This document shows, one piece after another, positions 34,512-57,493 of a stretch of DNA of 64,000 bases. The stretch is from Chondrosia reniformis (Eukaryota; Porifera; Demospongiae; Chondrillida; Chondrillidae). The DNA is taken from assembly GCA_947172415.1 (NCBI GenBank), contig OX359200.1:6078501-6142500 (forward strand). Reading direction: 5' to 3'. Every line of letters starts with the position of its first letter. Within the stretch, counting starts at the first letter, position 1. The notes beneath the pieces were generated by a model, which saw nothing but the letters and a program-made list of their open reading frames with translations, made no database searches and was not told where the DNA came from. The translations under genes and the position numbers were made by a program.

Positions 34512-35633
34512 ATGGCTCAAGATGTTTCTGCAATAGTTATTGACATTGGATCAAAGCTGACCAAAGCTGGATTCGCAGGAGACGATGCTCCACGAGCCGT
34601 TTTCCCAACACTCGTAGGGAGACCTCGTCACGCCGGTGTCATCGTCGGTATGGGCCAGGGGGAGTCGTACGTCGGAGAAGAAGCGCTCAGCAAGCGCGGT
34701 ATACTCACTCTTAAGTACCCAATCGAGCACGGAACTGTAACCAACTGGGACGACATGGAGAAGGTACTACATCATACCTTCCACAATGAGCTGAAGGTGG
34801 CTCCGGAGAGTCACCCGGTACTACTCACTGAACCTCCACTGAACCCCAAAGCCAACAGAGAGAAGATGGCCCAGATCATGTTCGATACTTTTAATTCTCC
34901 AGCCATGTTTATAGCTAATACAGCAGTGTTGGGCTTGTATGCTTCAGGTCGTGTAACTGGCATTGCAGTAGATTCAAAGGATGAAGTTACTCATGTAGTA
35001 CCCATTTATGAAGGCTATGCACTGCCTCATGGTATCGTTCGCTTTAATCTGACCACTCCTGACTTGACCGGTTACCTGAAACATTTATTGAAGGAGCGTG
35101 GTTTTTCACTCAGTACTACTCCGGCTGAATATGAAGACAGTGTTATTCAGTCTATCACTGAGAAACATTGTTATGTGGCCATGGATTTTGAACAGGAACT
35201 GCAGCTTTCTTCAAATGTGGAGGAGAGCTACGAGCTTCCTGATGGGAAGGTCATCACACTTGGGAAGGAGAGGTTTACTTACCCAGAAGCTTACTTCCAG
35301 CCTTCATTTTTGGGTATAGAATCTGCTGGTATCCATCAAGTTATATACAACGCTATAATGAAGTGTGACGTTGACGAAAGAAAGAAATTTTATGAAAATA
35401 TAGTTCTTTCTGGAGATAGCACTTTGTTACGGGGTTTTGCTGAACGATTGGAAAAGGAGCTTACAGCTCTAGTTCCTCCAACAATGAAAGTCAATGTTAT
35501 CGCTCCACCGAAGAGAAAGGATGCTATTTGGATTGGCGGTTCTATTCTGGCTGCTCTGTCCAACTTTCAGCAAATGTGGATCAACAAAGACACATATGAT
35601 GAATCTGGACCATCAGCAATACACAGAATCTGA
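34512..35633 (+). CDS. Divergent intronless actin 1
   Basis: Single exon, 373 residues, colinear with conventional actin (375). The fold-defining blocks are kept: [73 protein letters not shown]. Key ATP-site residues are changed (conventional numbering): phosphate loop 1 DNGSG becomes DIGSK (Gly15 to Lys), the hydrolysis residue Gln137 becomes Thr, phosphate loop 2 DSGDG becomes DSKDE, and the late GGTT segment becomes GDST. Asp11, Asp154 and His161 remain. The usual KCF end is missing (ends IHRI). So this is an actin-fold protein that probably binds or hydrolyses ATP poorly. Lack of introns suggests origin by retroposition. Confidence 0.9.
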
Positions 35634-36325: not shown

Positions 36326-37441
36326 ATGGCTGAATATATCTCTGCAATAGTTATTGACATTGGATCAAAGCTGACCAAAGCTGGATTCGCAGGAGACGAT
36401 GCTCCACGAGCCGTTTTCCCAACACTCGTAGGGAGACCTCGTCACGCCGGTGTCATCGTCGGTATGGGCCATGTGGAGTCGTACGTCGGGGAAGAAGCGC
36501 TCAACAAGCGTAGTATACTCACTCTTAAGTACCCAATCGAGCACGGAACTGTTACCAACTGGGACGACATGGAGAAGGTACTACATCATACCTTCCACAA
36601 TGAGCTGAAGGTGGCTCCGGAGAGTCACCCGGTACTACTCACTGAACCTCCACTGAACCCCAAAGCCAACAGAGAGAAGATGGCCCAGATCATGTTCGAG
36701 ACGTTTAATTCTCCAGCCATGTTTATAGCTAATACAGCAGTGTTGGGCTTGTATGGTACTGGCAGTATCACATGTACAGGCATTGTAGTGGATTTGAGGG
36801 ATAAATTTGTCAATATTGTACCAATTTACGAGGGCTATCCACTTGCTCATGCCATCCTCCATTTTGAGTTGTTTGACTTGACAGATTTCCTTGCAAGAAT
36901 GTTGAGAGAGCGTGGATATTCTTTTAGCACTAAGGCTGAATATGCAATATTAGAAGACATTATAGAAAAACATTGTTATATTGCCTATGATATTGAACAG
37001 GAACTGCATTTTTATTCAAATGTGGAGGAGAGCTACGAGCTTCCTGATGGGCAGGTCATCACACTTGGGAAGGAGAGGTTCACCTGTCCAGAGGCACTCT
37101 TTAACTCTGCTTCTTTGGGTGCACAATCTGGTGGTATTCATGAAATGACATACAATGCTATAATGAAGTGTGATGTTGACATAAGAAAGGACTTGTATGC
37201 CAGTATAGTTCTCACCAGAGATAAGACCATATGGAAAGGTTTTGCTGAACGATTGGAAAAGGAGATTACAGCTCTAGCTCCTCCCATGATGAAAGTCAAT
37301 GTTACTGCTCTATCAGAGAAAAAGCATGCTATTTGGATTGGTGGTTCTATTCTTGCTGCTAGTCCTCACTTTCAGAAGATGTGGATCAAAAAGGAGGAAT
37401 ATGACGAATCTGGACCATCATTAGTTAACAGATATTTCTGA
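36326..37441 (+). CDS. Divergent intronless actin 2
   Basis: Single exon, 371 residues. The first ~145 codons are almost identical in DNA to actin-like 1 (about ten differences in ~415 bp after codon 7), while the rest has diverged strongly. ATP-site changes go further: DIGSK in loop 1, Gln137 to Thr, loop 2 reads DLRDKFVN (Gly to Arg, Gly to Lys, His161 to Asn), and the late loop is LTRDKT. The region after loop 2 is closer to conventional actin in places ([26 protein letters not shown]). The full-length open frame, and a tail [13 protein letters not shown] ending in Phe, suggest it is still under selection. Confidence 0.88.
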
Positions 37442-37747: not shown

Positions 37748-44115
<6,368 letters not shown>

Positions 44116-44457: not shown

Positions 44458-44640
44458 AATTGAAATCAAAGCGATAAAACAATTTATGGGTCAATCCTCC
44501 TCTTCTTCATCAAATGATAATAGTCCTCTGTTTTGAACAGTCTTGTATTCCTTCTCACTTGGTACAGCCTTCTTATTGTGAGAGTCTTCACTTTTACTCT
44601 TCTTGCTAGTCGCACTGATACCTGACGGAGAAGATCTCTG
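44458..44640 (-). pseudogene. KIAA1143 3'-end relic 1
   Basis: Closely matches 56830-57020, the 3' end of the intact KIAA1143 gene (shared cctcctcttcttcatcaaat and cgcactgatacctgacggag). Only the last ~50 codons are present. It stands right after the HOIP 3' end, as the intact gene does after the third array member. Confidence 0.88.
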
Positions 44641-44814: not shown

Positions 44815-44955
44815 TATATATTGGTCAGTCCTCCTCTTAATTCTTCGTCAAATGATAACAGTCCTAGGCCTCTGTTTTGAACAGTCTGGTGTTCCTTCTC
44901 ACAGCCTTGAGTCTTCATGATCACTTTTACAATTGCTAGTTGCAGAGTTACTAGA
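44815..44955 (-). pseudogene. KIAA1143 3'-end relic 2, more decayed
   Basis: Second, more diverged copy of the same segment (ggtcagtcctcctctt, then cctctgttttgaacagtctg), with small insertions and deletions. It points to an earlier duplication or a tandem copy of relic 1. Confidence 0.78.
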
Positions 44956-45271: not shown

Positions 45272-48200
45272 ATGGCTTATTCTGTCCTGGAAGCTGTTAC
45301 TGAAACCAAGAATGTTCTGGGTAGAGGATCGTACGGTGAAGTTATTGAAGTAAAATGGTGTGGAACAATTTGTGCTGCTAAAAGACTGCACGATATCTTT
45401 CTAACTTCGCTTTCCCAAGCCGAACTGGATAAAATGGTTAAAGATGTTGAAAAGGAGTGTCAGACTTGGTCCAATTTGAAGCACCCGAACATCGTTCAAG
45501 TTCTCGGATGTTACTACCAAATTAGTAGTCGTTCGCGTGTGCCTATTTTGGTGATGGAAAGAATGGATACGTCTCTTCGTCACTATTTAGAAGTCCATAC
45601 TAAGAAGGACTTCCTTCTCCTGGACAAAGTGTCCGTCCTTCTCCAGGTTGCTCAGGGGTTGTGCTATCTTCATTCGCAAAAGCCACGTCTCGTCCACCAC
45701 GACCTAAGTCCCAATAATATCCTGTTGAACGATTGGACCTTTCTGACCAAATTGACAGATTTTGGTATGACCCGAGCGATCAATCAATCAAAGCTGACCC
45801 GTCAGTCATCCGTCAAAGGTACTCTGGCTTTTATGCCTCCTGAAGCACTTTACATCCCTCCACGATACACCGAAAAGCTAGATATCTTCTCGTATGGGGC
45901 TTGCATTGCAACAGCATTGACCCACCAATGGCCTAGCTTATCACATCCCGTAATATATGAAGGTCGCCAAAGAATCGTACTGACAGAGCTGGATCGCAGA
46001 AAAGCACAAATTGAAATGCTGAGTGTCAAAGAGAAGAATTTGTTTTTACCTCTTATCAAAAGGTGTTTGGAGGACGACACAAGCTTTCGTCCAAATAGCA
46101 AAGAATTGGTACGTGAAATGATGCAAATTGATTCTGCTTGCAAAAGATCAAACAAAGCAGGGTCATCAGCAATTTCCAGAGCTCAGCAAGCCATGTCCCA
46201 GCTACCTCTTGAACAGCAACAGAAAGCAAGGCTTCAACAACAATTGGAAATAAAATCTCAATGTGTGCTTGATTTAGAAAAGATCATTCAACGTCAAAGA
46301 AGACAACTAGAAAAGCTAGAAAAGGAACTTCAGCAACAGCAGCTAAATGTTGACAAAGCACTCGTTACACAAGTAAGTTCTTTCTAGATTATAAGTTTAA
46401 TTTTATATGTATAATAATACTGTATACCTTAAAATTGATTGTTAAAATAGAAGACACAATCACAGGGCTGCGTGCCATGGACAAAATGAAAATTTAGGAG
46501 GGCAATGGTATGAGGATGTCGAAACAGTTTATATTAACTTCTCAAAAGTCTAGGGGGGGCAAAATCAATCCTGGGGGGGGGTGCTGAACATATACATTTG
46601 ACAGATTTGGACATTTCGACCCGGAAGTCTTCATCAGCAATAATAAGGAGAAGATACAAGCCAGTTTATATAATGTCATTCCATATGGCATCCAGGTTCA
46701 TTCCTTGGTCCATGTTCATGCATGGTGTTGTCTTGATGAGGATGGCCGCTTTGATTTTTCTTCTCATCCTGTGTTGTTCTGATTAGATCAAGGAGAGTTG
46801 CATTGTCTTCGTCAGTTGTTGTGTAGTGTCTTCTGTACATAGACAGCAGGGAGTTGTTGTTGTCGGATCTCCTGACAGCTCTCTTAGGTTCACTCATTCT
46901 TTGGTTTAAGGATTTTCCAGTGTCACAAATATATATTTCACCGTGCACATTGGCAAGATATCTGATAGATCACACCTGCATAGTTTGTGATGGTCATCAG
47001 ATGGTGTTTTCACTTTGGTTAGGATCAATGGTGTTTTCATAATTAATCTGAGTGTGTTGTTGGATTTATGGAATACTCTGATGTTCCGTTTGCTGCATGT
47101 TCTTTTGTATCGTTTCGCTCAACCCTTTGATGTATTATAACAGGTACTGATTTACTGTGTTTGGCGGGTATTGTTAAACAATTTAAGATGTGAATACTAA
47201 ATTATATGTTAATTAAATTTCTGGTTTAAAATTGAAAATATTTGACTGCCAAAGAAGAAAAAAACATATTTGAAATACTTATTAGCATGTACATACTAAG
47301 CCAGGACCATTGCGGCAATGACATAGCTCTATTTTACTCATTATCTTTCCTAATATCTATATATTATGAATGGTAAGAGTACTTATTACCTTTAGTGGGA
47401 GGAACAACATCAAGGAATCACTTGTGTAGATTTTCCTAAATGGAAAGCTGAAAATGATGAAGAAAATCAACAGAAAGGTCCTGCTGCCTTCTTAAAGGAG
47501 AATATGTGTAATCAAGAGTGTCCTCTTTGCACTGACACATACTTTATTGACGATGTAAGTTCCTTCCTGTACTCATTTTACATTTGTCAATTACCTTGTA
47601 ACCTCTACTCTATAGATGGTCACAATGCTCCACTGTGCTTGTTCTGTGTGCAAAGATTGCTTCAAAAGGCATTATTCCGTTGTGGCCAGAGAAAAGACAT
47701 TGGGCCATTTCAACTGTCTACTGTGTAGTCAGCCGGACCTCTCTGCAACTGACATTGACAAAGATGACTACTTGACACTGTTTTCTGTTCTTCTGAAAGT
47801 ACATCTATCCAACGATGATTATCAGCTCTTTCAAAAGAAGGCCACAGACTATGTATTGCTGAAGGATCCAAATTTTAGATGGTGTCCAAGTGTATGTTAT
47901 AACCAGTTCTCATAGTCTACAAAGTACTTACTGAATTTGGATTCTCTCCTGCAGTGTGGTCAGGCCTTCATTCACGAGCCTCCTGCAGCTGGTAACCTAA
48001 GAATAGCTTGTCCTCACTGTGACAAGAACTCTTGCTTCAACTGCAAGAAAGTGGTAAGTGGTGTGAGACGTATTTACAATATCTACAGCATGTACATACT
48101 AAGCCAGGACCGTTGCGGCAATGACATAGCTCTATTTTACTCATTATCTTTCCTAATATCTATATATTATGAATGGTACTATTATGTGAGTACTTTTTAT

Positions 48201-50401
48201 TACCATTAGTGGGAGGAACAGCATCAAGGAATCACTTGTGTAGATTTTGCTAAATGGAAAGCTGAAAATGATGAAGAAAATCAACAGAAAGGTCCTGCTG
48301 CCTTCTTAAAGGAAAATATGTGTAATCAAGAGTGTCCTGTTTGCTCTGAAAATATCTTTATTGACGATGTAAGTTCCTTCCTGTACTCATTTTACATTTG
48401 TCAATTACCTTGTAACCTCTACTCTATAGATGGTGACCATGCCCCACTGTGCTTGTTCTGTGTGCAAAGATTGCTTCAAAGGGCATTATTCTCTGGTGGC
48501 CAGAGAACAGACATTGGGTCATTTCAACTGTCTGGTGTGTGGTCAGCCGGACCTCTCTGCAACAGACATTGACAAAGATGACTACTTGACACTGTTTTCT
48601 GTTCTTCTGCAAGTACATCTGCCAGACGATGATTATCAGCTCTTTCAAAAGAAGGCCACAGACTATGCTCTGTCACAGGATGCCAATTTTAGATGGTGTC
48701 CAAGTGTATGTTATAACCAGTTCTCATAGTCTACAAAGTACTTACTGAATTTGGATTCTCTCCTGCAGTGTGGTCAGGCCTTCATTCACGAGCCTCCTGC
48801 AGCTGGTAACCTAAGAATAGCTTGTCCTCACTGTGACAAGAACTCTTGCTTCAACTGCAAGAAAGTGGTAAGTGGTGTGAGACGTATTTACAATATCTAC
48901 AGCATGTACATACTAAGCCAGGACCATTGCGGCAATGACATAGCTCTATTTTATCTTTTTTAATGTACGTATATGTTATGAATGGTATTTGGTTAATTCC
49001 TGTAATATTATATGAGTATTTTTTATTACCTTTAGTGGGAGGAACAGCATCAAGGAATCACTTGTGTAGATTTTACTAAATGGAAAGCTGAAAATGATGA
49101 AGAGAATCAACAGAAAGGTCTTGCTGCCTTCTTAAAGGAGAATGGAATAGGTATGTATGTGTATACATAGGCGGTGGAACCGGTGGGCAGGGGGGACTTG
49201 CCCCATCATAATTTATGAAGGGGTGGCAATGCCCTCCCAACATTCTGTAGCAGTAGTATACCATAACAATATGGAATACATGATAATAAGGCAAAAACTT
49301 ACTTAGATGCATGTCATTGGTAGATTGTATATAATACTGTCAACACAAAAATTTTAGTATGTCATGAATTTTACAGAAGATCCACTAGCTTGTAGAGATT
49401 TGCAGGGAAAATATTTTAGTGCAGTGGACTATTTATATTGGTATATTGTTGACAATATGGCCGTTCTTCCTGTAGCTCAGGCTTCAATTCACGGTCTATA
49501 TGCCTTTCTTATTTGTCTTATCTTCAGAGTGTCCAAAATGTCACTATCGCTATGACTTAGCCAAGGGAGGGTGTCTGCACTTTACTTGTACCCAGTGTTT
49601 TGTCAAAACTGAATTCTGCGGTGGTTGTGGTTCTATTTTTGACAAGGTAATTATAATATAACATTGAAAGAGTAGCAATTATTTTAAATTTTTTATTGCT
49701 TATGCATATATAATATATAGAATTGTCATAAATTTAAAGCTTGTACAACTAAAGCCTTCCACACTCATCATCCAAGGGACTGCCTCTTCTACATCAGAGA
49801 CTGGGAAGTTGAGAGACTACAGAAAGCTCTGGAAGATAGTAAAATTGAATTTGACACTGACCCACCTGAGAAACAGGTTAATGCAGCCAAGGAAGGAGGC
49901 ATAGAGGAGGCAGGACTGTTGAGGTGTAGAGTTATTCTGCAGAAAGAGGTAGGGGATGATAAGGTTGATGAAGAATGTGGAGATGGTTGTGAAGCTGGTC
50001 ATGCTGGACTTTGCAAGTATGTGAAACATATACGTAGGATACCAACTGGTATACTGGAATGTTGATATTATAAATATATTTGTATGTCTATTTGATTAAT
50101 GTGTTTGAATTTTACAGAAAGCATTATAAGGAATATCTTGTCTGCAAGCTAAATGAAGCTTCAGTTGATCCTGCTGACTTTATGGATTTGGGTGAATTAA
50201 CAGCTGTGTTAGGAAGAGAGGAGAAGGAGTTACCACCAAAGAACAATCCAAACGAAGGAGATGATGACTATTTGAAGAGAATGAGAGAGGTAAGTTTTCT
50301 AAACTACAACAACTGCAATATGGTATTATCTTCTAATTTCCTTGTTACAGCATGTCAAGAAAGAGTTGCCTTTGGAGAAGAGGGGAGCATTAAAATTCTG
50401 A
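45272..50401 (+). CDS. Protein kinase - HOIP-type RBR ligase fusion A
   Basis: Twelve exons in phase: 45272-46372, 47396-47554, 47616-47891, 47955-48053, 48210-48368, 48430-48705, 48769-48867, 49036-49150, 49528-49646, 49721-50016, 50118-50289, 50351-50401; 973 residues. Exon 1 is a complete kinase: glycine loop GRGSYGEV, Lys37 in [13 protein letters not shown] with Asp144, DFG (Asp163), MPPEALY, then a Gln-rich coiled coil (~300-367). It resembles TKL-group kinases. Next come RING1-IBR twice, RING2 with catalytic Cys777, and a complete LDD, 90% or more like the neighbouring HOIP gene. Exon 2 is chimeric: an IBR-linker start (WEEQHQG) joined to the RING1 start (CNQECPLC). The link between exon 1 and exon 2 rests on matching phase and splice signals across a 1-kb intron; transcript proof is lacking. 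PUB and UBA domains are absent. Confidence 0.8.
46455..46590 (-). repeat. C-rich interspersed repeat, inverted copy
   Basis: Inverted relative of 18421-18575 (gggggggcaaaatcaatcct), next to the Penelope-like fragment in intron 1 of the fusion gene. Confidence 0.6.
46609..47130 (-). mobile_element. Penelope-like retroelement 3' fragment with GIY-YIG
   Basis: On the minus strand 46948-46676 encodes [18 protein letters not shown] followed by an Arg/Lys-rich RAVRR segment, matching the GIY-YIG endonuclease that ends Penelope-like reverse transcriptases. Just upstream, in a shifted frame, [10 protein letters not shown] gives the preceding GIY-type segment and SNNTLR the element's usual block before it. 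Frame breaks show it is dead. A hammerhead-like core (46609-46637) lies 3' of the endonuclease. Confidence 0.75.
47145..47395 (+). repeat. Duplicated HOIP intron DNA with internal deletion
   Basis: 47145-47280 copies 40870-41005 (ggtactgatttactatgttt in the source) and is joined to a copy of 42630-42748. The exons in between (UBA region and first RING exons) are missing. It marks the breakpoint of the duplication that built fusion gene A. Confidence 0.8.
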
Positions 50402-50933: not shown

Positions 50934-53900
50934 ATGGCTTATTCAATCCTCGAGGCTGTTACTGAAACCGAGAATGTTCTGGGTAGAGGATCGTACGGTG
51001 AAGTTATTGAAGTAGAATGTTGGGGAACAATTTGTGCTGCTAAAAGACTGCACGATCGCTTTGTAAGTTCGCTTTCCCAAACCGACTTTGAAAAGGAGTG
51101 TCAGACTTGGTCCAATTTGAAGCATCCGAACATTGTTCAACTTCTCGGATGTTACTACCCAGTAGGTAGTCGTTCACGCGTGCCTATTTTAGTGATTGAA
51201 AAAATGAATACGTCTCTTCGTCTCTACTATGAAAACCATACTAAAGTGGACTTCCTTCTGCTGGACAAGGTGTCCGTCTTTCACCAGGTTGCTCAGGGAT
51301 TGAACTACCTTCACTCTTTTAATCCTCCCCTGATCCATCATAGCCTAAATCCCAATAATATCCTGTTGAACTATTGGACCTTTCTGACCAAATTGACAGA
51401 TTTTGGTATGGGCCGAGCGATCAGTAAGCTGGCCTATCACTCCTCCGGTACTCTGCCTTTTATGCCTCCTGAAGCACTGTACATCCCTCCACGACACACC
51501 GAAAAGCTAGATATCTTCTCGTATGGGGCTTGCATTGCAACAGCATTGACCCACCAGTGGCCTAGCTTATCACATCCTGTTATTTTTGAGGGTGATCAAT
51601 GCAAGGTATTGACAGAATTAGATCGTAGACAAGGGCAAATTGATGTGCTGGATGTCACTGAGAAGGAATTGTTTCTGCCACTTATTAAGAGGTGTTTGGA
51701 GTGTTATCCTGAATTACGTCCAAATAGCAAAGAGCTGTTGTCCGAAATGAGGCAAATAGAGCGTGGTCTCTATGCTACTGGAGAAATAAGAGCAATCTCT
51801 AAGGTCAAATCACAATTACTACTTGAACAACATCAGAGAGCACAACTTCAGCAGCAATTAGAAGAAGAGCGTCAGCGTGTTACTGAATTAGAAGAAAGGC
51901 TTCTGCTACAGGAGAGGAGTAGAAAGGACCCTCACCCTGAAGAGTATGGCTACCAAGTGCATCAAATATTCCATCATGAGATTGATAAATCTCTGGATCT
52001 TCAAGAAAAGAAGTTGCCAGCTAAGATACACTCATCCCTTTCCATACCTATTGAAAAGGGGGTAAGTGAAGAAATAGATATAAGCAGGCCTGATACATAG
52101 TAATTATTAAAATGGCAAAGGAAAACAATCCTTTGTAGGGGATTTTTGTTTACGTATATGTATGTATGGAGGTATATGCATTAAATTTTGGTAAATTCCT
52201 TAAGACAAATGTCTTGTTACGTACCGAATTTTATTTTGTTACCCGGTTATATCAAGCATTGATAATGTTAAATTTGTAAGATTATTTTAAGGGAAATACC
52301 TCTTAGCCTGTTATTCTACCTCATTATACTGAAAAGCGAAACTATCTTTATTTAGCAAAGCAAAGCAAAGCAAAGCAAAGTCAGCTACATATACGTACAT
52401 ATGTATATATACAGCAGAAGTTGTATTCTTTGTCCCAGTTATATACGTACTTTCTTTTTCTGTGTACAGTAACTAGCCACTAGGATGTTTGTCTATCTAT
52501 CTTTCCTTACAGTATACGTGTCTCACAAATGAATGTCCTATTTGCTATGATCAATTCCCTAATGATGATGTAGGTTACGCCTCTATACAGCATGCAGCTC
52601 CTTCAGTCAAACTGTTTAAAGATCTTTTCATTTTTTATGCCTATTGTAACCTCTACTCTATAGATGGTGACCATGCCCCACTGTGGTTGTTCTGTGTGCA
52701 AAGACTGCTTCAAAGGGCATTATTCTCTGGTGGCCAGAGAACAGACATTGGGTCATTTCAACTGTCTACTGTGTAGTCAGCCGGACCTCTCTGCAACAGA
52801 CATTGACAAAGATGACTACTTGACACTGTTTTCTGTTCTTCTGAAAGTACATCTGCCAGACGATGATTATCAGCTCTTTCAAAAGAAGGCCACAGACTAT
52901 GCTCTGTCACAGGATGCCAATTTTCGATGGTGTCCAAGTGTATGTTATAACCAGTTCTCATAATCTACAAAGTACTTACTGAATTTGGATTCTCTTCTGT
53001 AGTGCGTTCAAGGCTTCATTCACGAGCCTCCTGCAGCTGGTAACCCAAAAATCACATGTCCTTATTGTAACGAGGACTCCTGCTTCATCTGCAAAAAAGT
53101 GGTGAGTGGTGGCATACAATGCAATGTACGTACACCTATGCTAGGGCATACAAATTAGCCTCGCTACAGCAGTACATCTAGCCACTATAATTGCTACATA
53201 TAGTAGCCAAAGCATATAGACGATATAGATGTAACGGGGACTCCTGCTTCATCTGCAAATGGTGAAAAGAATATAGTAGTTGATACATGTACATATATTT
53301 AATGAAGCCTGCGTTACTCTTTATTGTTCCTTAGCAATATTGTTGCATAGCAAAGAAGGCTTTTTCTGATCGTATAGATTACTCAATCGAGAGAGGTGTC
53401 CTGACTGGAATGAATATATACGTATATATATATACACGTATATATAAACGGGGCCATTTTTGCTTCAGGATTACTTGCCTATAAACAATGAAATTACAGA
53501 CACCACAAGACTAAACATTCTGGCAACCTTACATTTGCAACTATAATTCTGTTAAGAAAATACAGTTCTATATATAGCTATATGCAATCAATTTGCAGTT
53601 GAATTTGTGATTTCAGTTGCCTGCATGTTTATATTATATATATTTAGTTCTGAATTTTCATCATGTAGACTCATTTTCCCCATAATTATCTAGTATACGT
53701 AGTACTTACTCTGGCAGTTTTCGCTGTATAATCTTATGTATGTATATGTATTCAGTGGGAAGAACAACATCAAGGAAATACATGTGCAAATTTTTCAAAG
53801 TGGAAGGCTGAAAATAATTTCAACAAGACCTATGAATGTAATGTTTGCTTTGAGCCTTTTTATATTGATGATGTAAGTTAATATGTAAGCATATTACTTC

Positions 53901-56391
53901 TTCCATCCAACAATTATATACATTATTTAAAGGTTAATGCTTTCAAATTTATCAATGTTGTTTGACTTGTATTACTTTTATAGATGGTGGCGATGGTTAG
54001 CTGTACATGTTCTGTGTGCAAAGAATGCTTCAAAAAGCACTATTCCCTGGTAGCCAGAGAGCAAACATTAAGTCATTTCAACTGTCTAATATGCAGACAA
54101 CCGGATCTATCTGTCATGGATATCAACAAGGATGACTACTTGACATCATTTTCCCACCGTCTAAAAGCAAACCTGACAAGTACTGACTATGAATGCTTTC
54201 AAGAAAAGGCAACTAATTATGCATTGTTTTGCGATCCTGACTTTCGTTGGTGTCCAGATGTAGGTAATACGCCACTACCATGGGTTGTGTGATGTTCATT
54301 AAAGTTGTTTTATTACCTGTAGTGTGGTGCTGGCTTTATTCACGACCCTCCTGGAGCTGGGAAATCCATAATATATTGTCCTAAATGTCTAAGGATGCTT
54401 TGCTTTTACTGCAAGAAATTGGTATGCTTTGATATTTGCATGTATGTAACTGCTTGGATACGTATATGTTTTGTACACACTTGTATATAGTGGGAGGAAC
54501 AACATGAAGGTGTTGCGTGTGTAGATTTTGCTAAATGGAAAGCTGAAAATGATGAAGAAAATCAACAGAGAGGTCTTGCTGCCTTCTTAAAGGAGATTGG
54601 AATAGGTTTGTGTACCTATATGGATTTGTACTCTGACAAATAGCTACGTAGTATCATCTATAAACTGAGTCTTAATTTTCAGAAATATTCAATTTGAACA
54701 TCCTAATAAACTATTACTGTGTATATAAAAATATATTTTTAATTACATCTGTGGCTTCTTGCTACATTGGTAGTGTATAACATTTAATCCATTAGAGGGT
54801 ATTCAGTTGTGGAGCCAAAATCTGTCCGCTTACTTTAATTCTTTTATCTATCACTTTACATTACATATACGTACGTATGTAGTGTTTTCTCTTATCTTCA
54901 GAGTGTCCAAAATGTCACTATCGCTATGACTTAGCCAAGGGAGGGTGTCTGCACTTCACCTGTACTCAGTGTTTTGTTAAAACACAATTTTGTGGTGGAT
55001 GTGGATCAATTTATTATGAGGTACGTATATGACACTAATACATACGTACATATACAGTAGTATGAGTGTACGTCTGTACAACATATATTGTAAAATTCAG
55101 AGGAAAATGATTGATAGTCAAAGTTTTTTGTTCCATTGGGCCAGACAGCTTTTTCTGGGCATACAACCCTTACCAAGAATTTTAACCTTAGTGCATGAAG
55201 TTACAGCTCTAGCCAGACTTTGCCTGGTTCCACTCCCAAACTCCAGAATTAAAGAAATCAAAACCTTTTTGGCACAGTAAAAGGAAATTATTTTTCTAGT
55301 GATTTAATTAGCTACATATATAATACATGGACATATACGTATATATGTATGTAATATAATTGATTGCTAATTATGTAATTACTCTGTGTCATATTTTTAT
55401 TAGTTCTGCCGCAAATATAAAGCTTGTCAAGCCTTGGGCTTCCACACTCATCATCCAAGGGACTGCCTCTTCTACATGAGAGACTGGGAAGTTGAGAGAC
55501 TACAGAAAGCTCTTGAAGATAGTAAAATTGAATTTGGCACTGATCCACCTAAGAAACAGGTTAATGCCACCAGAATACGAGAAAGGGGGATAAACATGTT
55601 TTTCAGATTGTTTAGAAAAGCTCCTAAAGAAACTTTGAAGTGCAGAGTTAAACTGCAGAAAGAAGTAGGCGAAAATAAAATTGATGAAGAGTGTGGAGAG
55701 GATTGTGAAGAAGGTCATGCTGGACTTTGCAGGTTGGTTTGATGTAATGAGCTAGTCAAAAGTGAAAATCTACATATGTATATATATATATGTAGATAGG
55801 TTTTTCAGGCCTATACTAGGTATGTTGGCTAGAAATAGTTGATTGCCTCATTTTACATTGTGTAGAATACATTACATAGAATATCTTGTCTGCAAGCTAA
55901 ATGAAGCTTCAGTTGATCCAGCTGACTTCATGGATTTGGATGAAATAAAACTTGTGTTAGGAAGAGAGGAGAAAGAGTTACCACCAAAGGATGATCCAAA
56001 CAAAGGAGATGATGACTATTTGAAGAGAATGAGAGAGGTAAGTTTTGTATAAAAATTGATCTTACTTTAATGGAATCACTTACGTAGTTATTATAATTAT
56101 TATAAAAGAAAGGTACATTTAAAGGTACTCATGCATTGCGGTAAACTATAGCTCAGTAGTAACAGAGCACTGGTGGCTAAATCAACTGTCACAGGTTTGA
56201 TTCCCAGCAATATTTCTTTTTTTTATTTTCTCTACAATGTGGATGATATACGTATGATTTAAACAGTTGTGGTTGGGATTATCATTTTGATTATTAATGT
56301 GTTATTACTTCTCCTATTCCAGCACACCAAGAAAGAGTTGCCCTTAGAGAAGAGGGAAAGCATTGGATCTTTGACACTGCATTACACATAA
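50934..56391 (+). CDS. Pseudokinase - HOIP-type RBR ligase fusion B
   Basis: Twelve exons in phase: 50934-52061, 52513-52569, 52664-52939, 53003-53101, 53756-53872, 53984-54259, 54323-54421, 54491-54605, 54902-55020, 55404-55732, 55866-56037, 56323-56391; 951 residues. The kinase is homologous to fusion A (same start [28 protein letters not shown] at Asp156), but HRD is HHSLNPNN: the catalytic base is Ser137, so phosphotransfer is unlikely. After a coiled coil ([17 protein letters not shown]) come RING1-IBR twice (the two copies well diverged), RING2 with catalytic Cys738 in GGCLHFTC, and the LDD, which has an extra basic segment ([19 protein letters not shown]). The exon 1-2 join is inferred from phase and splice sites. 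RBR sequence is more diverged than in fusion A, so this copy is older or has escaped conversion. Confidence 0.8.
53230..53259 (+). pseudogene. Fragment of the IBR exon inside an intron
   Basis: Thirty bases (tgtaacggggactcctgctt and on) repeat the end of the IBR exon at 53066-53095 with one change. They are followed by a stop, so this is a small duplicated relic rather than an exon. Confidence 0.7.
56141..56212 (+). repeat. tRNA-derived sequence (SINE head or tRNA relic)
   Basis: Box A-like TAGCTCAGTAGT (56149-56160) and box B-like GGTTTGATTCC (56194-56204) are spaced as in a tRNA gene and followed by a T-rich run. The acceptor ends do not pair, so it is not a working tRNA. It lies in the last intron of fusion gene B. 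Confidence 0.6.
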
Positions 56392-56869: not shown

Positions 56870-57493
56870 TCAGTCCTCCTCTTCTTCATCAAATGATAAT
56901 AGTCCTCTGTTTTGAACAGTCTTGTATTCCTTCTCACTTGGCACGACCTTTTTTTTGCGAAAGTCTTCACTTTTACTCTTCTTGCTAGTCGCACTGATAC
57001 CTGACGGAGAAGATCTCTTCTGTGCGGGTTTCTTGAAGGATACTTTCAAAGTAAGATCAGCTTTAGGTAGTTCTCTGTCACTCGAGTTGTCTCTATCATG
57101 AAGGTCCCGACTGCTCGAGTTGTCTCTATCATGAAGGTCCCGACTGCTCGAGTTGTCTCTATCATGAAGGTCCCGACTGCTCGAGTTGTCTCTATCATGA
57201 AGGTCCCGACTGCTCTCGTTCGAAGTGTCATCATCTCTGGTAGCATTCTTCTCGATCAGTCTGATTTCATCATACTGCTCCTGCGTCAGGTCGCCCGGCT
57301 TCAAAGTGACTACAGTCGGTTGTTCGTCTTCTCGCTCCTCTCGATCGTCCAACTTGGATTCGTCGATTTTTGGCGCTTCAAACTTGGCGTCGATCGGATC
57401 TGGTTCTTTGTAACCAATTTTTTCTTTAAAGGCTTTTATAAAGTTTGGCTCTGACGGTCTATCGTATGCTACATTTCTCTTGGGAGCGGCCAT
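56870..57493 (-). CDS. KIAA1143 homologue
   Basis: Intronless, 207 residues (human KIAA1143 154). Function of the family is unknown. The N-terminus (KRNVAYDRPSEPNFIKAFKEKIGYKE), the EDEQPTVVTLKPGDLT block and the acidic end RGLLSFDEEEED match the human protein's layout. A family-atypical insertion of four 11-residue units (DLHDRDNSSSR) is encoded by a 33-bp in-frame repeat at about 57080-57212. Last ~50 codons are copied as relics after the HOIP gene, 12 kb away. Confidence 0.9.
   Translation of the reverse strand: MAAPKRNVAYDRPSEPNFIKAFKEKIGYKEPDPIDAKFEAPKIDESKLDDREEREDEQPTVVTLKPGDLTQEQYDEIRLIEKNATRDDDTSNESSRDLHDRDNSSSRDLHDRDNSSSRDLHDRDNSSSRDLHDRDNSSDRELPKADLTLKVSFKKPAQKRSSPSGISATSKKSKSEDFRKKKVVPSEKEYKTVQNRGLLSFDEEEED

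Follow-up and report, generated by a model that had tools for sequence, protein, structure and literature searches.

In vertebrates, kinases and the writer of linear ubiquitin chains meet through complexes, and in the plant U-box-kinase and RING-kinase (KEG) proteins and MAP3K1, where a kinase and a ubiquitin ligase do share one chain, the ligase is not of the RBR type, has no LDD and is not known for linear-chain chemistry. We describe here a gene of the sponge Chondrosia reniformis that is predicted to join a TKL-like kinase to the RBR-LDD of HOIP (RNF31). The gene lies in a window of 64 kb without N (contig 12, OX359200.1, positions 6078501-6142500), which was analyzed as a whole; genome-wide searches cover the Chondrosia reniformis assembly of 117,379,552 bases in 15 contigs. 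The genome report gives a chromosomal assembly of 117.37 Mb in 14 chromosomes, built from HiFi reads of ~70-fold coverage and from Hi-C data, with RNA data deposited, among them run ERR10177766 (PMC12181767). In HOIP-type ligases, linear-chain synthesis is carried by the RBR-LDD (PMC5413910), and the action of a kinase on HOIP in trans was explained in 2025: STK4 phosphorylates T786 in the allosteric ubiquitin site, lowering activity, and the model presented has the HOIP UBA inhibiting RING1 (PMC12441119).

Three HOIP-derived genes stand consecutively in the window, copy 1 being canonical and copies 2 and 3 being kinase fusions (Table 1). We consider it very probable that copy 2 is a real fusion gene, arisen by exon shuffling, in which a kinase exon is spliced to an RBR-LDD. 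An earlier note on this DNA had described 12 phase-keeping exons encoding 973 residues, and this model was confirmed to the base, with all introns GT-AG and the sole stop terminal. Pfam finds in its translation a Pkinase match over residues 12-282 (E 7e-37), IBR in two stretches (E 1e-19), IBR_1, which scores best over RING2 (E 2e-13), and E3_UbLigase_RBR, the LDD or HOIP C-terminal domain, over residues 832-933 (E 1.2e-22), with no match at E 0.01 besides the kinase, IBR and LDD models; this agrees with the earlier proposal that the PUB/UBA half had been replaced. The residues on which the earlier note relied are likewise in place. Motif searches find Lys37, Asp144 and the DFG motif at 163 in the kinase, where K37, E62, D144, N149 and D163 are all present and invariant across 24 aligned kinase rows, and the catalytic Cys777 in RING2 within GGCLHF, accompanied by His779; all RING1, IBR and RING2 zinc-ligand motifs searched for are present. 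A 390-residue RBR-LDD piece aligns with residues 2-383 of the human RNF31 chain 5EDV (E 6e-93). An AlphaFold2 model of the kinase and coil has a mean predicted local distance difference test score of 83.9, with a single helix over residues 299-366 and residues 165-180 below 50, and two hand-picked stretches of the tail beat shuffled sequences in their heptad a/d pattern (17/5000 and 48/5000 shuffles reach the observed value).

Copy 2 shares with HOIP the RING1-IBR-RING2-LDD order, the catalytic Cys and His, the HHPRDC motif of the LDD and a threonine at the place of Thr786, and departs from it in having a kinase and coil in front, a doubled RING1-IBR and no PUB or UBA match. The PUB match, which is weak, and the UBA_HOIP match fall not in the copy 2 model but in the separate HOIP gene upstream; NZF had no Pfam match in the six upstream HOIP pieces scanned. 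Both fusion genes carry RING1-IBR twice. In each, an exon that fuses the IBR-RING2 linker to the RING1 start stands ahead of the second unit, and the joints differ between copies 2 and 3. A 36-residue stretch (WEEQ...LKEN), normally the linker between IBR and RING2, also stands orphaned ahead of the first RING1 of copy 2. Drosophila LUBEL and other RBR-LDD proteins have likewise kept the RBR-LDD beneath changed N-terminal halves, and LUBEL makes linear chains in a species without predicted HOIL-1L or SHARPIN (PMC5413910).

The kinase exon is one member of a large family, with at least 112 places genome-wide at E 1e-20, both window genes included; the 22 best places outside the window show 54-67% identity. 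We analyzed 30 kinase loci with 1.5 kb flanks, scoring donors with a textbook matrix. Copy 2 exon 1 ends in a phase-0 donor (CAA/GTAAGT, score 4.6). In 21/24 loci the highest-scoring donor downstream of the kinase lies in phase 0, where chance would give 8, and with a score of at least 2 required the figure is 17/19; the two window genes are counted in both figures, and the loci, being paralogues, are not independent of one another. These figures leave aside six of the 30 loci: four whose kinase exon itself contains the propeller, one whose exon contains ankyrin repeats and one almost without a tail. An NHL propeller is found in 18/30 loci, within the kinase open reading frame in four and downstream inside the locus in 14 (for L030, the printed match is its neighbor's and its own propeller was found separately). 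Thirteen propeller starts were examined and 11 gave a row; in each of these a phase-0 AG lies no more than 21 bases from the start, and in seven directly at it, although AGs of other phases also lie near most propeller starts. Because of the phase-0 donors, the NHL propellers and the phase-0 AGs, the usual build of the family is, on this evidence, a kinase-coil exon, a phase-0 intron and a C-terminal module. Other modules occur: ankyrin repeats follow the kinase in L037 (contig 14), which shares an identical kinase with the collection protein P0127; in L036 (contig 7) the kinase runs into a Ras-type GTPase piece matched by Pfam, and its close twin L038 on the same contig shows such a piece by eye; and a Cul7/CPH exon follows the kinase exon in L026 and L056 (contig 11). 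Within the sequence analyzed, what follows the kinase could be read in 24/30 loci. Judged from these loci, the family is one in which C-terminal modules are swapped behind one 5' exon. Copy 2 resembles the sponge kinase-coil-NHL genes in carrying kinase and coil on one exon with a phase-0 donor, and differs in having RBR-LDD exons in the propeller's place; a tblastn search of the 64-kb window with five propeller exons (E 1e-3) found no NHL propeller.

The junction itself points to the manner of joining. Within the fusion intron, 47135-47280 resembles the HOIP intron stretch 40864-41008 (90%) and 47289-47395 resembles 42637-42748 in another (84%), while dispersed repeats at 46489-46578 and ~46670-47103 account for the majority of the 50 genome matches listed for this intron. 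Since the fusion intron holds two pieces of HOIP introns, the breakpoints look intronic and the HOIP duplicate looks to have been cut inside its introns, so that its first usable exon would start at a phase-0 acceptor. We posit that HOIP was partly duplicated in tandem and that a kinase-coil exon of the family, with its phase-0 donor, ended up ahead of this duplicate. The exon would then have been spliced to RING1-IBR-RING1-IBR-RING2-LDD instead of to the propeller that follows in its relatives; the resulting unit would be present twice in tandem, the distal copy having lost the kinase base. Pieces resembling the 3' end of the DUF4604 gene lie between HOIP and copy 2 and are probably a trace of duplication.

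Copy 3 lies directly downstream of copy 2. The observation goes beyond chance because this diverged paralogue keeps the 12-exon order of copy 2 and an open frame of 951 residues. Its kinase and that of copy 2 are sisters with support of 100/100 in a tree of 10 other proteins and 27 of these loci, the three short ones among the 30 having been omitted, in which many deeper branches remain open. Copy 3 keeps the RING2 catalytic Cys738 and the ligand motifs searched for; its kinase has Ser for the Asp of HxD, a motif that reads HHD or HRD in copy 2 and in almost every relative, and it is probably a pseudokinase because HHS replaces HHD. Comparison of rates is consistent with constraint. Between copies 2 and 3, the kinases have a synonymous divergence (dS) of 0.52 and a ratio of nonsynonymous to synonymous divergence (dN/dS) of 0.40 (Fisher P 2e-9); RING2-LDD gives dS ~0.4 in the comparison of copy 3 with copy 1 (dN/dS 0.30, P 4e-8) and with copy 2 (dN/dS 0.27, P 1e-9), and the RING1-IBR units give dN/dS 0.19-0.35, unit 3B being the oldest (dS >1). 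The Fisher tests comprise six comparisons on rounded counts, 5/6 of which fall below 1e-3. Copies 1 and 2 are 92% identical in DNA, introns included, over ~2.2 kb of the 3' half, and this near-identity means that the 3' half of copy 2 is either a recent duplicate or was later overwritten; because the dS values form a patchwork, they suggest gene conversion between HOIP and copy 2. All LDD matches (6/6) and all RBR-LDD matches (24/24) genome-wide fall inside this three-gene cluster. Kinase and IBR places less than 50 kb apart occur in this window only, in a by-eye comparison of at least 27 IBR with at least 112 kinase places, both of them lower bounds, the IBR model having recovered just one of the five RING1-IBR units of the window; the next nearest pair, on contig 10, is ~60 kb apart.

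Several points weigh against a genuine fusion. The fusion is predicted from genomic sequence, both fusion genes contain several inner donors with low scores, and the heptad pattern is weak across the entire copy 2 tail (308/5000 shuffles reach it). The equivalent of Thr786, present in 4/4 fused RING1-IBR units, is also kept in the canonical HOIP of the same cluster, so that its presence does not argue for control in cis. Unspliced, the copy 2 kinase reading frame ends four codons beyond the donor (stop 46385-46387), an in-frame Met at 47504, ahead of the first RING1, could start a kinase-free RBR, and an ATTAAA at 52106 lies just past the copy 3 kinase stop (52098-52100), with others at 52180 and 47212. 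These last observations are what one would expect of two neighboring genes, a single-exon kinase and a kinase-free ligase starting at that Met, an arrangement we regard as unlikely: the kinase relatives mostly have a phase-0 donor followed by a propeller exon, and in copy 3 the first RBR exon has no Met ahead of the first RING1 cysteines, so that an upstream exon is needed. Neither kinase stop is followed by an AATAAA before the RBR exons begin, which says little because the copy 2 LDD stop likewise has just ATTAAA behind it.

A different concern is that the RING2-LDD of copy 2 is too recent, relative to copy 1, for constraint to be detected (dS 0.04, dN/dS 0.53, not different from 1, P 0.23). 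Together with a fusion intron full of dispersed repeats and the orphan linker, this would suit a decaying partial HOIP duplicate that happens to lie beside a kinase and yields no working product. We find such decay quite improbable, as neither fusion gene has a frameshift or a stop, the searched ligand motifs and the catalytic Cys are retained, and the copy 3 frame has stayed open at dS ~0.4 with the low dN/dS of its RING2-LDD and RING1-IBR units. It is scarcely credible that HOIP, the gene upstream, uses the copy 2 RBR exons as an alternative 3' end, for all their shared strand, adjacency, compatible phases and identity to the HOIP 3' half, given that HOIP owns complete 3' exons and a stop followed by ATTAAA and AATAAA before the kinase, and that a kinase exon with its donor sits between HOIP and these exons.

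The joining of a kinase to a HOIP-type RBR-LDD, proposed in the earlier note, stands as an open gene model with a fused paralogue; the parallel drawn there with RIPK1/RIPK2 is not supported. No RIPK occurs among the best 60 of 2177 PDB chains by sequence or the best 50 of 2000 rows by fold, and a RIPK-like origin of the copy 2 kinase was rejected on these matches. In the same sets TAK1 heads the fold rows and takes second place by sequence, behind a chain labelled EGFR; many kinases score close to it, and IRAK4, IRAK1 and MLKL are among the best 50 fold rows. Death domain and CARD had no Pfam match in the 973-residue model at E 0.01, and RHIM was not searched for as such.

Among the literature matches listed (titles and abstract starts), searches by subject found no kinase-HOIP fusion; the earlier note knew of none either. 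Neither PF00069 nor PF07714 is present in the best 120 of 228 RBR-LDD relatives, and no RBR Pfam model in the best 120 of 2809 kinase relatives (7992 candidates scored). The former do include PF05743, PF00041 and PF00635, the models for UEV, fn3 and MSP. The protein collection contains proteins (P0122-P0125 and P0127) identical or nearly so, over the part compared, to kinases of this genome, and it seems to hold no spliced proteins of Chondrosia reniformis, because the canonical HOIP is absent among the matches listed (best 66% identical); its silence on the fusion hence carries little weight.

How might the product of such a fusion gene act? We suggest that the coil would cluster the protein, that RING1 would take ubiquitin from an E2 and RING2 pass it on through Cys777, and that the LDD would place the acceptor, giving Met1-linked chains. 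Lacking a UBA, the protein should neither dock HOIL-1/SHARPIN nor be subject to UBA-RING1 inhibition, which would free the ligase from partner control, and lacking a PUB it should escape docking of OTULIN and SPATA2-CYLD. The kinase may phosphorylate the RBR, in cis or across the oligomer, and so tune the ligase, Thr497 and Thr675 being the candidate sites. OTULIN and NEMO families had no match in the genome, and control genomes gave none either, so that this result is uninformative. We offer only tentatively the wider idea of a self-contained circuit from kinase to linear ubiquitin in one chain, working through the two allosteric-site threonines, with the pseudokinase paralogue as a regulatory partner in mixed coils. 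The circuit would then be one of several outputs that this sponge obtains by attaching different modules (propeller, ankyrin, Ras-type GTPase, CPH, RBR-LDD) behind a phase-0 kinase exon.

Table 1. Features of the 64-kb window (window coordinates); for the N-terminal half of HOIP the coordinates are those of pieces, not exon borders. On contig 12, copy 2 spans 6123772-6128901 and copy 3 spans 6129434-6134891.
Feature	Position	Strand	Remarks
Tandem intronless actin genes	34512-35630; 36326-37438	+	DNA identity ~84%
Possible first HOIP exon	37748-38005	+	without Pfam match
Copy 1, canonical HOIP/RNF31 gene	38814-44115	+	directly upstream of copy 2
Copy 1, PUB exon	38814-39566	+	Pfam 22.8 bits, below cut-off 34.3
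Copy 1, UBA_HOIP	41080-41352	+	Pfam E 6e-16
Copy 1, RING1 start	41882-42079	+	
Copy 1, RING1-IBR	42153-42590	+	
Copy 1, linker/RING2	42749-43361	+	
Copy 1, LDD	43445-44115	+	
Pieces resembling DUF4604 gene 3' end	44486-44639; 44817-44902		95%; ~81%
Copy 2, predicted kinase-RBR-LDD fusion gene	45272-50401	+	exons 45272-46372, 47396-47554, 47616-47891, 47955-48053, 48210-48368, 48430-48705, 48769-48867, 49036-49150, 49528-49646, 49721-50016, 50118-50289, 50351-50401
Copy 2 exon 1, TKL-like kinase and C-terminal helix (299-366)	45272-46372	+	Pfam, AlphaFold2
Fusion intron	46373-47395	+	1023 bp
Copy 2 exon 2, orphan IBR-RING2 linker and first two RING1 cysteines	47396-47554	+	
Copy 2 exons 3-4, remainder of RING1-IBR unit 2A	47616-48053	+	Thr497 at place of human HOIP Thr786
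Copy 2 exons 5-7, linker and RING1-IBR unit 2B	48210-48867	+	Thr675 aligns with HOIP Thr786
Copy 2, doubled RING1-IBR	47396-48867	+	
Copy 2 exons 8-9, linker and RING2	49036-49646	+	catalytic Cys777 (GGCLHF), His779
Copy 2 exons 10-12, LDD and stop	49721-50401	+	Pfam E3_UbLigase_RBR E 1.2e-22
Copy 3, second predicted fusion gene	50934-56391	+	
Copy 3 exon 1, kinase and tail	50934-52061	+	HHS for HHD; phase-0 donor GGG/GTAAGT
Copy 3 exons 2-12, two RING1-IBR units, RING2, LDD	52513-56391	+	Cys738
Copy 3, doubled RING1-IBR	52513-54421	+	
DUF4604 gene	56873-57493	-	

If expressed, copy 2 would unite in a single chain two signalling enzymes that ordinarily occur as separate proteins, and the threonine carried by both RING1-IBR units of this natural fusion would make control of a linear-chain ligase in cis directly testable. 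The fusion would also show that the catalytic half of HOIP can be re-wired without the half that docks it in LUBAC, and the kinase family to which its first exon belongs offers, as far as its loci can be read, a clear example of modules being exchanged repeatedly downstream of a shared 5' exon.

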